Positions 1-41,102 of a stretch of 48,105 nucleotides of DNA are shown one piece after another. Under the pieces are notes generated by a model, which did no database searches, was not told the DNA's origin, and was given only the letters and a program-made list of their open reading frames with translations. The stretch's first letter is position 1. The number at the start of each line of letters is the position of its first letter. The stretch is from an uncultured bacterium. Lineage in GTDB: Bacteria; Desulfobacterota; BSN033; UBA1163. The stretch covers positions 1 to 48,105 of the forward strand of contig CALIBK010000042.1 in assembly GCA_938045955.1 (NCBI GenBank). Reading direction: 5' to 3'. A program made the translations under genes and the position numbers.

Positions 1-1
1 G

Positions 2-1192
2 GAAAAGGGACAGGCTATTTCGAGAGCGACAGCCCTTAAATTTGTCATCTTTTTGGGTTTTGTGAGTCTATTTGCAGATATGACTTATGAAGGGGCTCGA
101 AGCATTACCGGGCCCTTCCTTGCACTCCTCGGAGCAAGTGGTACGGTGGTGGGGATTGTGGCGGGCTTTGGAGAATTGGTTGGATATGGCCTGCGCCTTG
201 TGTCCGGGTATATCAGTGATAGGACGGGAAAGTACTGGGCGATCACACTCATTGGGTATTTTGTGAATCTACTGGCTGTACCCCTTCTTGCGTTAGCAGG
301 ACGCTGGGAGATTGCTGGCTTTCTCATGATTATGGAGCGAATGGGAAAAGCAATTCGTAACCCATCCCGTGACGCCATGCTTTCCCATGCCACCCAGAGG
401 ATTGGCCGTGGCTGGGGCTTCGGATTGCACGAGGCCCTGGATCAGATCGGGGCAATCCTCGGTCCGCTCATCGTTGCCGGAGTCCTCTATGTCCATGGAG
501 GTTATCGAACAAGCTTTACCATTCTTTTCATACCCGCTCTCTTGGCATTGATCGTACTTCTTGTGGCACGGGCGCTCTATCCGCATCCCCGTGACTTGGA
601 GATAGCCTCTTCCGAATTTAAAACAAAGGGATTCCCACACGTCTTTTGGCTCTATCTCGCTGCTGTAGCCTTGATTGCAGCAGGCTATGTAGATTTTCCT
701 CTGATCTCTTTCCATTTTGAGAAACTATCCATAGTTCCTAAAGTCTGGATTCCTGTTTTGTATGCGGTTGCCATGGGGGTTGATGCCCTTTCAGCCCTAT
801 TCTTCGGTCATCTATATGATCGGGTAGGACTCTCAATCTTGATCGGGGTTACGCTGATTTCTTCGTTTTTTGCCCCATTAGTCTTCCTGGGTGGCTTTCA
901 CTTAGCTCTTTTAGGGATGGCTCTTTGGGGCATAGGGATGGGTGCGCAGGAATCGATCATGCGGGCTGCCATTGCAGAGATGATCCCTATGGAGAGGCGG
1001 GGTATGGCCTATGGGATTTTCAATGCAGGTTTTGGATTCTTTTGGTTTTTGGGCAGTGCGATAATGGGTATCCTATACGATCTATCCATTTCATTCCTAA
1101 TCATTTTCTCGATAACCATGCAACTTGTTTCCATCCCGATCTTCATTTCGATCAGGAAAAAGCTCGAGAAAATTTCCAGGGTGGGAAGATGA
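2..1192 (+). CDS. MFS transporter, 5' end cut off by the window edge
   Basis: Polytopic inner-membrane protein of the major facilitator superfamily; the substrate cannot be told from sequence. The frame is open from base 2 with no stop. A TTG at 53 exists, but residues of the first membrane helix (KFVIFLGFVSLFADMTYEGA) are already encoded upstream of it, so the true start lies outside the window and the gene is partial. Hydrophobic helices alternate with short basic loops; loop motifs such as SDRTGKYW (after helix 2) and GHLYDRVG (second half) are the typical MFS cytoplasmic-loop signature, and GMGAQESIMRAA falls in the second half. It ends at TGA 1190-1192, convergent with tRNA-Gln 14 nt further on, with no clear terminator between them. 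The family call is firm, the function open. Confidence 0.85.
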   Translation, partial: EKGQAISRATALKFVIFLGFVSLFADMTYEGARSITGPFLALLGASGTVVGIVAGFGELVGYGLRLVSGYISDRTGKYWAITLIGYFVNLLAVPLLALAGRWEIAGFLMIMERMGKAIRNPSRDAMLSHATQRIGRGWGFGLHEALDQIGAILGPLIVAGVLYVHGGYRTSFTILFIPALLALIVLLVARALYPHPRDLEIASSEFKTKGFPHVFWLYLAAVALIAAGYVDFPLISFHFEKLSIVPKVWIPVLYAVAMGVDALSALFFGHLYDRVGLSILIGVTLISSFFAPLVFLGGFHLALLGMALWGIGMGAQESIMRAAIAEMIPMERRGMAYGIFNAGFGFFWFLGSAIMGILYDLSISFLIIFSITMQLVSIPIFISIRKKLEKISRVGR

Positions 1193-4362: not shown

Positions 4363-4393
4363 AAAAAGGCCTTCCCCTCAAGAAGGCCTTTTT
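4363..4393 (-). terminator. Strong bidirectional intrinsic terminator
   Basis: Perfect 12-bp hairpin: AAAAAGGCCTTC (4363-4374) pairs with GAAGGCCTTTTT (4382-4393) around a 7-nt loop. The A run and T run flank both sides, so it can work in either direction. It lies 31 nt past the stop of the minus-strand cysteine-rich gene (4424) and about 75 nt before nfu, so its likely job is to separate those two units. Confidence 0.9.
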
Positions 4394-4423: not shown

Positions 4424-4609
4424 TTAAGTGGATTGATTTTCATCTTTTTTGGACCGGAGATATTTATTCAGGGCGTCCTTCTTTTCGCAAAATTCCATAT
4501 CCCCCTCACAGGTCGTACTTCCACCATCCATGTCGCAATAGCCCAGGCCTTTACCCATTCCCAATCCCTCCGGTCTTCTAAAAAGTTGACATACTTTTTG
4601 TTCTTCCAT
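4424..4609 (-). CDS. Small cysteine-rich protein under riboswitch control
   Basis: 61-aa protein of unknown function with four cysteines (C7, C25, C34, C41; spacing C-x17-C-x8-C-x6-C), Gly-rich in the middle (PEGLGMGKGLGYC) and charged at the end. There is no signal peptide or membrane segment. The cysteine pattern suggests a metal or Fe-S site or a small zinc fold, but I do not recognise the family with certainty. ATG 4609 was chosen because it follows GGAGA by 8 nt; longer in-frame starts would lie inside the leader terminator and upstream RNA structure. The leader contains a GEMM-I riboswitch aptamer (4742-4827) and an intrinsic terminator (4633-4657), and a strong terminator follows the gene, so it is a single-gene unit regulated by a cyclic dinucleotide. 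Confidence 0.8.
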   Translation of the reverse strand: MEEQKVCQLFRRPEGLGMGKGLGYCDMDGGSTTCEGDMEFCEKKDALNKYLRSKKDENQST

Positions 4610-4625
4610 TTTGTTGTTCTCCAAA

Positions 4626-4657
4626 TAAAAAAACCCGTGATAACTTTTACCACGGGT
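4626..4657 (-). terminator. Leader terminator, riboswitch expression platform
   Basis: Minus strand: ACCCGTGGTAA (4647-4657) and TTATCACGGGT (4633-4643) form an 11-bp stem with a single G-T wobble and a 3-nt loop, followed by TTTTTTAT-type sequence (4626-4632). It ends 17 nt before the start codon of the cysteine-rich protein and about 85 nt after the aptamer, the position expected of a transcription-attenuation platform. The sense of control (on or off with ligand) cannot be read from sequence alone. Confidence 0.88.
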
Positions 4658-4741
4658 CCAGCACACCTCTGGTGATAGTTGGGTCGTTCCCAAAAAGTGA
4701 AATCTTTTGGTTACACCACTCCTACCTTCCCTCAGAAGTTC

Positions 4742-4827
4742 TGCTTCGGCAACCTGGCGATCCTGCAGAAGGCAGGACCCATGGCTTTCCGTCCCAGGAT
4801 TACTCCTGGTTTGGCTTTATCGGCAAA
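4742..4827 (-). ncRNA. GEMM-I (c-di-GMP-I class) riboswitch aptamer
   Basis: On the minus strand the conserved pieces appear in order: AAAGCCAAACC; a hairpin CAGGA-GTAA-TCCTG capped by a GNRA tetraloop; GGGACGGAAAGCC (family consensus GGGACGCAAAGCC); a second hairpin TCCTGC-CTTCT-GCAGGA; and CGCCAGGTTGCCG (consensus GCCGGGTTGCCG). This is the two-hairpin GEMM-I architecture. Aligned by hand on the AAACC block, the position equivalent to Vc2 G20 is G, which favours c-di-GMP over the cGAMP-binding subclass (A at that place). That subclass call is tentative, especially since GGAAAGCC is also seen in Geobacter cGAMP aptamers. The exact boundaries are approximate. Confidence 0.9.
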
Positions 4828-4838
4828 TATTTTAGCTA

Positions 4839-4866
4839 ATCTTATTTTATGCATTTTAAATGCCAA
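4839..4866 (-). promoter_or_regulatory. Promoter of the riboswitch transcript (sigma-70-like, with an overlapping sigma-54-like site)
   Basis: Minus strand: -35 TTGGCA (4861-4866), 16-nt spacer, -10 TAAGAT (4839-4844), placing the start near 4832, just before the aptamer. The same bases also read TGGCAT-TTAAA-ATGCA (4850-4865), a sigma-54-type -24/-12 element with GG and GC correctly 12 nt apart; that would start transcription near 4839. The spacer is a near-palindrome (GCATTTTAAATGC), so an operator is also possible. Either promoter fits the aptamer position. Confidence 0.5.
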
Positions 4867-21869: not shown

Positions 21870-23315
21870 TTAGATAATTTTCCTCCGTTCATTGGAGGGA
21901 AGAATCTTTAGCATCTCCCGATACTTCGAAACCGTTCTTCGAGCGATATGAATATTCATCCCCTTTAAGATTTGAACCAGTTTCTCATCACTGTATGGCT
22001 TTCGAGGATCTTCCTTAGCAATGATCTCCCGAAGAAGGTTTTTGATGGTCTCCGAAGCAATGGCCTCTCCCTGGGCTGATGGAATTCCTGTGTTGAAGAA
22101 AAATTTCAATTCATAAATCCCCTGAGGGGTATGCATATATTTATTATGGGTAACCCGGCTGATCGTAGACTCATGCATCTGGATATCCTCTGCCACATCC
22201 CTGAGGACGAGGGGTTTGAGAAACTGAATCCCGTGATCCAGAAAGTCCTTTTGAAATTTCACAATACTTTTCGCCACCTTATAAATAGTTCGCTGACGCT
22301 GATCAATGCTTCGAATCAACCATAGAGCGGATCGCATTTTTTCCTGAATATATTTTCGTTCCTCCTGAAGGCTACGACGGCTTTCAGAAAGGAGACGGCG
22401 ATAATAAGGATTAATCCTCAATTTGGGGATCCCCTCATCATTCAAAGAGATCACATACTCTCCTTCAACTTTATAGACATAGACATCCGGGATGATCTCT
22501 TGAATGATCTCCCCTCCGAACGCCTTTCCTGGTTTTGGATCTAATTTAAAGATGAGGGAGGCTGCTCGTGTCACTCGCTCCAGGGAGAGTCCGAGCTTTT
22601 TTGCAATCGCAGGGTAATTTCGATTCTTCAACAGGGAAAGGTGGTCCGAAATGATCTTCTCGGCTATAGGATCTCTTATCGAAAGCTGTTCCAATTGAAT
22701 CAACAGGCATTCCCGGAGATCTCTTGCTCCTACCCCCACTGGATCGAATTGTTGAATCTTTCGAAGGGCGCTTTCCACGGAAGAGACCGGGACTCCTGTT
22801 TCCGCACTGACTTCCTCCAGAGGAATCTTTAAATAGCCATCCTCATCGAGGTTCCCAATGATCCAGAGACCCGCCCTCTCTTCCTCTTCGGTGAGTTGAG
22901 AGAGCTGGAGCTGCCAGTAGAGATGGTCGAAAAGGGTGGTCCGCTTCGTGAGAAGATTCTCTATCGGAGGTCGATCTTCACCGTCCTGGTCCCTTGGTTT
23001 AACGGAAGGAGTCAAGTTATAGTTTTCTAAATAGCTCTCCCAATCAAACTCATCTGAACCTTCCCCTTCCCCCTTGACTTCGATAGTATGTTCAGAATTC
23101 AGGGAAGACCCTTCTTCCTCTCTCAAAGGTTCCTCATGCCCATCCCCTTCCTCAAACTCCACCTCTTCGAGCAACGGATTCTCTCTCATTTCCTGATTGA
23201 TCAGTTCAACCAGTTCCAAACGAGTCAATTGGAGAAGACGGATTGCCTGCTGAAGTTGGGGGGTAATCACCAACTGTTGGGTCAGTTTAGGAGCTTGCTT
23301 CAGTTCCAAAGCCAT
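21870..23315 (-). CDS. rpoN: RNA polymerase sigma-54 factor
   Basis: Sigma factor for -24/-12 promoters that need an activator ATPase. Glutamine- and leucine-rich region I (LTQQLVITPQLQQAIRLLQL, about residues 11-30), acidic region II, core-binding and helix-turn-helix parts, and the RpoN box ARRTVSKYREMLKI near the C-terminus are all present. The 481-aa length is normal. It is 27 nt downstream of lptB. Two candidate sigma-54 promoters occur in the window (upstream of apgM and of the riboswitch gene), which makes its presence more than positional. Confidence 0.96.
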   Translation of the reverse strand: MALELKQAPKLTQQLVITPQLQQAIRLLQLTRLELVELINQEMRENPLLEEVEFEEGDGHEEPLREEEGSSLNSEHTIEVKGEGEGSDEFDWESYLENYNLTPSVKPRDQDGEDRPPIENLLTKRTTLFDHLYWQLQLSQLTEEEERAGLWIIGNLDEDGYLKIPLEEVSAETGVPVSSVESALRKIQQFDPVGVGARDLRECLLIQLEQLSIRDPIAEKIISDHLSLLKNRNYPAIAKKLGLSLERVTRAASLIFKLDPKPGKAFGGEIIQEIIPDVYVYKVEGEYVISLNDEGIPKLRINPYYRRLLSESRRSLQEERKYIQEKMRSALWLIRSIDQRQRTIYKVAKSIVKFQKDFLDHGIQFLKPLVLRDVAEDIQMHESTISRVTHNKYMHTPQGIYELKFFFNTGIPSAQGEAIASETIKNLLREIIAKEDPRKPYSDEKLVQILKGMNIHIARRTVSKYREMLKILPSNERRKII

Positions 23316-40616: not shown

Positions 40617-40682
40617 TTGACTTTTCTTTTTTAAATAGATACCCTTGGGAAAATTTAAATGGATCTTTCCGCGGAGGTCTCC

Positions 40683-41102
40683 ATGAGTCCAGAAAAGAGA
40701 GTCTATTCATCCAAAAAGAAGAGCCTTCCAAAAAAGGGGATTCTGGCGATCGAGAGAAGAAAGTTTCCAAGATACTATATTGAACTCCCGTTGGATTATG
40801 AAAGAAAAGGTAAAAAATCGGATTTTGGAGGTTTCGTGAAGAATGCCAGTGAGGGAGGGATTTTAGTCTATCTCCCCGAGAGATTAGAGATCGGTGAACT
40901 TCTTAAGGTTGAAATCTATTTCCCGAAAGGATTAGAATTAAATACAATTCGGGGGGTAGCAAAAGTGGTATGGGCAGATCTTGCAGCTAAGGAAAGCTGG
41001 AGAGAACATCGATATGGTCTTGCTTTCCAATCCATGCGAAAAGGGGTGCTTCAAAAATTAAGAAATCTTTTAAAAGAAGTGGGCAAGACTTCAAAGTCAT
41101 GA
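40683..41102 (+). CDS. PilZ-domain protein (c-di-GMP receptor)
   Basis: 139-aa PilZ domain, likely binding c-di-GMP. The N-terminal RxxxR-type motif is ERRKFPRYYIELP (R25, R26, R30) and the second motif is N54-A-S56-E-G-G59, matching [D/N]xSxxG. A lysine-rich N-terminal tail of about 20 residues precedes it. ATG 40683 follows GGAGG with 5 nt between; an in-frame ATG at 40659 is less likely. A TTGACT box at 40618 suggests a separate promoter, but its -10 is poor. Together with the GEMM-I riboswitch this shows cyclic-dinucleotide signalling. The output is unknown; the neighbouring mla operon may be coincidental. Confidence 0.9.
   Translation: MSPEKRVYSSKKKSLPKKGILAIERRKFPRYYIELPLDYERKGKKSDFGGFVKNASEGGILVYLPERLEIGELLKVEIYFPKGLELNTIRGVAKVVWADLAAKESWREHRYGLAFQSMRKGVLQKLRNLLKEVGKTSKS

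Follow-up and report, generated by a model that had tools for sequence, protein, structure and literature searches.

Described targets of GEMM-I riboswitches (c-di-GMP-I class, RF01051) are mostly larger effectors, such as those of motility, pili and cytochromes. In Geobacter, riboswitches of the GEMM-Ib type that respond to cyclic GMP-AMP (cGAMP) mostly precede cytochrome, pili and polysaccharide genes (PMC6456294). In Bacillus, the cyclic di-GMP (c-di-GMP) riboswitch Bc1 has two terminators, drives the chemoreceptor gene mcpE and also affects translation (PMC11218506). Here we describe a unit on the minus strand of a 48,105-nt stretch (contig CALIBK010000042.1, positions 1 to 48,105, assembly GCA_938045955.1; hereafter the window) of an uncultured bacterium assigned to Desulfobacterota (BSN033; UBA1163), in which a c-di-GMP-I aptamer precedes a gene for a 61-aa microprotein with four cysteines (Table 1). 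The riboswitch RNA is of a known kind. New is the lineage-specific family of four-Cys microproteins, whose link to c-di-GMP consists in recurrent control by riboswitches and in fusion to the PilZ domain. We consider it rather probable that the locus is a doubly gated expression unit, with a sigma-54 promoter and a c-di-GMP OFF switch, for a small cysteine-rich protein that may be an adaptor, probably dependent on metal or redox chemistry, for behaviour under c-di-GMP control.

The window RNA shares with the c-di-GMP-I class its covariance-model score (72.6 bits with RF01051, gathering cut-off 35), the GNRA tetraloop on P2, the G, A and C contact bases and a terminator-type platform. It also scores 69.2 bits with RF03167 (c-di-GMP-I-GGC, cut-off 59), so that the complete GEMM-I aptamer claimed by the initial annotation stands, Infernal thresholds included. 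Folding of the leader is stronger than in 200 of 200 shuffles (z = -4.5). Unlike in described members of the class, the target is a microprotein family missing from protein libraries, the antiterminator uses a strand of P3, and a sigma-54 promoter lies upstream. A long platform and an intrinsic terminator between aptamer and gene are common to this locus and Bc1, whereas the two terminators, the translational action and the mcpE target are features of Bc1. The Geobacter riboswitches are similar in that they occur in related bacteria, in several copies per genome, and regulate by transcription.

Relatives of the 61-aa protein keep the aptamer upstream of their genes. In total, the same leader was detected ahead of at least 20 Cys microprotein genes belonging to two families. 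The second family (CKFYDHSRC...FCDLDC) is also placed under this riboswitch type, and its profile resembles that of the first (hhalign probability 94%). The small protein had previously been regarded as an unusual sole target. It is indeed the only gene of this unit, but that description understates the association, since in relatives this riboswitch type precedes Cys microproteins more often than any other target. The same riboswitch type also precedes short membrane peptides, a lipoprotein-like gene and others. At four loci (L039, L045, L060, L157) the sigma-54 element and riboswitch leader lie upstream of single-span membrane peptides of about 40 aa (MKLLLTAMISLTFVLGIGMVGL...), whose genes adjoin a metal-sensing-repressor-like gene and a TAT-signal (twin-arginine translocation) oxidoreductase-like gene.

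The host genome (G000) contains at least one further sigma-54 element with an aptamer start. It is located on contig C18 (L125, about bases 1-53, minus strand), where the element is followed by CACCGATAAAG, the beginning of a second c-di-GMP-I aptamer whose remainder is cut off by the contig end. Since several riboswitch loci of relatives also lie near contig ends, copy numbers are underestimated. On the minus strand of contig C96 (L113, 32010-32102), a member of the second Cys microprotein family is immediately preceded by a sigma-54 element, CTGGCATCGGGATTGCAA, but not by an aptamer.

Known protein families were considered for the 61-aa product and none matched, as searches of Pfam, NCBIfam, PHROG and PDB sequences returned no hit. 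The reading frame, announced beforehand as a four-cysteine product, is a real gene: homologues of the same type (type B) are 53-74% identical, in frame and free of stops. Residues C7, R11, G23, C25, D26, C34 and C41 are invariant in the alignment. Within the order, 15 of 17 genomes encode a homologue, and within the class 15 of 23 do. A sample of 395 genomes from the phylum contained no type A or B member outside one GTDB family. For types C and D there was one marginal match outside that family (E 1e-3). Named relatives belong to metagenome-assembled genomes of uncultured "Deltaproteobacteria" or Thermodesulfobacteriota, and IMG/VR contained no viral relatives. In most relatives, paralogues A and B stand in tandem after the aptamer. 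The window retains B only; gene A was not found in it, no close search for a remnant having been made. We found no description of this family, or of the combination of promoter, riboswitch and microprotein, in the literature within reach of our search, which left out most subscription journals.

The best clue to function comes from two genomes (fusions P0002 and L024) in which the four-Cys domain is fused to a C-terminal PilZ domain. In P0002 this domain matches PF07238 with 35.9 bits (cut-off 22.5). The RxxxR and NxSxxG c-di-GMP motifs appear intact by eye in the fusions, and both fusions are preceded by the same sigma-54 and riboswitch leader. These fusions suggest that the four-Cys domain belongs to c-di-GMP output. 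The window protein is linked to PilZ receptors of c-di-GMP through these two relatives and differs from them in lacking the PilZ domain (no PF07238 match in a Pfam search), as it corresponds to the N-terminal four-Cys domain alone. A stand-alone PilZ-domain protein is encoded elsewhere in the window (40659-41102, plus strand; PF07238, 51.5 bits) and is a candidate partner of the four-Cys protein.

A promoter ahead of the aptamer had been proposed earlier with its type left open. The conserved -24/-12 element found at this place, TTGGCATTTAAAATGC (4851-4866), reads TTGGCAT-N5-ATGC and has the sigma-54 layout GG-N10-GC; the window promoter is therefore best read as sigma-54 type, with its use in vivo predicted from motif and conservation. 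The pattern TGGCAY-N5-WTGC has two matches in the whole window versus 0.15 expected. The element lies ahead of 21 of 22 distinct related aptamers, and of 33 of 33 when the pattern is relaxed slightly, at a distance of 25-41 nt. A composite pattern of sigma-54 element and aptamer start, applied to the 395 genomes, gave 30 matches in this GTDB family and one each in 8 other genomes, versus 2 in total for the reversed control. Four of the 8 outside matches are aptamers by Rfam. At one of these four loci (L150, genome G177) the element and a c-di-GMP-I aptamer stand upstream of a type IV pilin-like gene, and the pairing of sigma-54 promoter and riboswitch is therefore wider than this lineage. The window itself carries rpoN (21870-23315). 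A sigma-70 promoter was rejected: the region holds 3 matches against 1.7 expected, no better than chance, and the conserved element is of the sigma-54 kind. Two other -24/-12 motifs of the host genome (L130 and L131, contigs C104 and C130) are followed by genes that, judged by eye, encode a pilus-like secreted protein and an ATPase of the PilB/GspE type, a hint that surface structures may belong to a sigma-54 regulon.

Further, the 5' arm of the terminator, GGACCCGUGGU, is complementary to the 5' strand of aptamer helix P3, GCCAUGGGUCC, at 11 of 11 positions in the window. Across the whole leader, the P3 5' strand is the arm's best partner in 18 of 22 leaders. Of 33 leaders, 26 have a fully paired 7-bp core (GCCACGG with CCGUGGC), versus 6.9% in shuffles. 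A first P3 base A is matched by a terminator base U in 7 of 7 well-paired leaders, and one leader (L156) displays a compensatory A-U to G-C change (P3 GCCGCGG, terminator side UCGCGGC). We regard this covariation of P3 and terminator arm as supportive rather than conclusive. In three leaders (L037, L051 and L156) some P3-matching bases sit in the terminator loop, where they are dispensable for the terminator itself. For a window transcript halted once the 5' arm has been made, the two competing folds are predicted to be equal in energy (-68.6 and -68.5 kcal/mol); at this decision point the antiterminator is already the best fold of about 14 of 22 leaders.

The proposed mechanism would proceed as follows. 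RNA polymerase with sigma-54 would initiate at the -24/-12 element, a step requiring an activator (bacterial enhancer-binding protein, bEBP), so that an activator must switch the unit on. The leader RNA would then take one of two folds. With c-di-GMP bound, the aptamer including P3 would be held, the 5' arm of the terminator would stay free, the terminator would form and transcription would stop. In the ligand-free state, the P3 5' strand and the arm would pair as antiterminator, allowing read-through and synthesis of the four-Cys protein, which is thus expected when c-di-GMP is low. As the ligand, by holding P3, would free the terminator, the conserved complementarity predicts an OFF switch.

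Several observations weigh against this interpretation. At equilibrium the full window leader favours the terminator (-78.8 versus -70.4 kcal/mol), and read-through would therefore depend on kinetics. Covariation is limited, as several pairs are invariant and the leaders are related by descent, and the fit is poorer in leaders with long P3 insertions (L006, L142). In the window promoter the -12 element reads ATGC, not TTGC. The protein family is absent from two genomes that have riboswitches (G001, G012). The AlphaFold2 model built from 17 sequences is poor (predicted local distance difference test 61) and a Foldseek search with it returned no PDB fold match, for which reason no metal site is claimed. 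Independently of these points, six aptamers of close relatives (L006, L067, L068, L069, L074, L075) carry insertions of 80-180 nt with internal repeats in or around P3, which explains their Rfam scores below cut-off.

The opposite polarity, in which c-di-GMP would disfavour the terminator and induce the protein as in the cGAMP riboswitches of Geobacter, seems to us unlikely. It has a precedent in Bc1 of Bacillus, where c-di-GMP unfolds terminators (PMC11218506). However, the sole conserved pairing able to exclude the terminator is formed by the P3 5' strand, and the ligand would keep that strand inside the aptamer; the linker lacks a conserved element that the ligand could release against the terminator.

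The initial annotation had left the choice between c-di-GMP and 3',3'-cGAMP as ligand. In the alignment, the bases directly 5' and 3' of P2 in the window aptamer are G and A, corresponding to G20 and A47 of Vc2; the third contact base (C92, Vc2 numbering) is the C in GCCGAA near the aptamer 3' end. These three are the c-di-GMP contact bases of Vc2 (PMC11218506). The cGAMP aptamer has A14 at the first discriminating position, just ahead of the C15-G40 pair (PMC6274999). Judged by these bases, the window RNA is of ordinary c-di-GMP type. The host genome (2.69 Mb, 92% complete) encodes three full GGDEF domains, each of which keeps the usual Asp in its GHxxGD motif, besides two weak partial GGDEF matches and five PilZ matches. 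Given the discriminating bases and this Asp, c-di-GMP is the most likely ligand and is favoured over cGAMP.

Recognition of 3',3'-cGAMP or another dinucleotide, as by GEMM-Ib or c-di-GMP-I-GGC RNAs, would agree with RF03167 being the top cmscan family by E-value, above its cut-off, and with a host lineage related to Geobacter, the source of cGAMP riboswitches. Against this, the window aptamer, unlike those of Geobacter, has G and not A before P2. After P2, at the J2/3 contact base, it has A where the RF03167 consensus carries G; that the name "GGC" refers to this base is our own reading of the consensus. The RNA gains more bits with RF01051 than with RF03167, and the Hypr change was not found in the three full GGDEF domains of the host genome, just 92% complete. 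Both the cGAMP and the GGC-variant ligand were rejected as the discriminating bases do not agree, and we rate a ligand other than c-di-GMP as improbable. Least credible is a riboswitch that no longer switches, with a ligand-independent terminator and the microprotein as a remnant of the relatives' A-B operon: only one of two genes remains, and close relatives favour their antiterminator more strongly than the window leader does, yet complementarity is still complete, the aptamer score is high, the reading frame is intact and conserved, and promoter and terminators are retained.

The remaining features accord with a self-contained unit of a single gene, as had been claimed. Two terminators were found: one ends 17 nt upstream of the start codon, as originally placed, and the other follows the gene, also as foreseen. 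The linker between aptamer and first terminator is 84 nt, and hairpins similar to the possible anti-P1 hairpin are present in relatives. The order trxB, unit, terminator, NifU-domain gene is kept in relatives, where a terminator likewise separates the microprotein gene from the NifU-domain gene.

Table 1. Features of the riboswitch-microprotein unit, in order of transcription.
Feature	Position	Strand	Basis
Sigma-54 type promoter TTGGCATTTAAAATGCA (GG-N10-GC)	4850-4866	-	Motif count in window, conservation in relatives
Expected transcription start site	near 4839	-	Inferred from spacing
c-di-GMP-I (GEMM-I) aptamer, P2 capped by GUAA tetraloop	4744-4824	-	Rfam scores, alignment
P3 5' strand GCCAUGGGUCC, predicted second role as antiterminator strand	4775-4785	-	11/11 pairs with terminator 5' arm
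Possible anti-P1 hairpin CAGA-ACU-UCUG, would sequester P1 3' strand	4733-4743	-	Sequence, inference
Intrinsic terminator of expression platform, 5' arm GGACCCGUGGU at 4649-4659	about 4627-4659	-	Folding, terminator search
Ribosome-binding site GGAG	4619-4622	-	Seen in sequence
Open reading frame of 61-aa four-cysteine microprotein (C7, C25, C34, C41), family type B	4424-4609, ATG at 4609	-	Homologues, alignment
Closing terminator, symmetric, also serving opposite strand	4363-4393	-	

From its PilZ fusions and its recurrent placement behind the same leader, we suggest that the four-Cys protein works as a small adaptor, probably metal- or redox-dependent, in processes under c-di-GMP control, for example attachment or motility; the metal and adaptor role is a guess. 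More tentatively, the four-Cys domain may represent a new type of output module for c-di-GMP, an adaptor dependent on metal or redox chemistry that one lineage would use in two forms. One would be the stand-alone microprotein, produced only at low c-di-GMP and with sigma-54 active; the other would be the N-terminal domain joined to PilZ receptors. If this is true, a single small domain is where the RNA receptors and the protein receptors of one messenger meet. The P3-based antiterminator with its partly covarying terminator arm yields a specific model of switching that is open to mutational tests. A nameless protein family is made testable as well, with its signal, likely expression state and probable partner domain predicted from sequence. 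One lineage repeatedly puts tiny Cys proteins of two distantly similar families, one of them also PilZ-fused, under a sigma-54 promoter and a c-di-GMP riboswitch.
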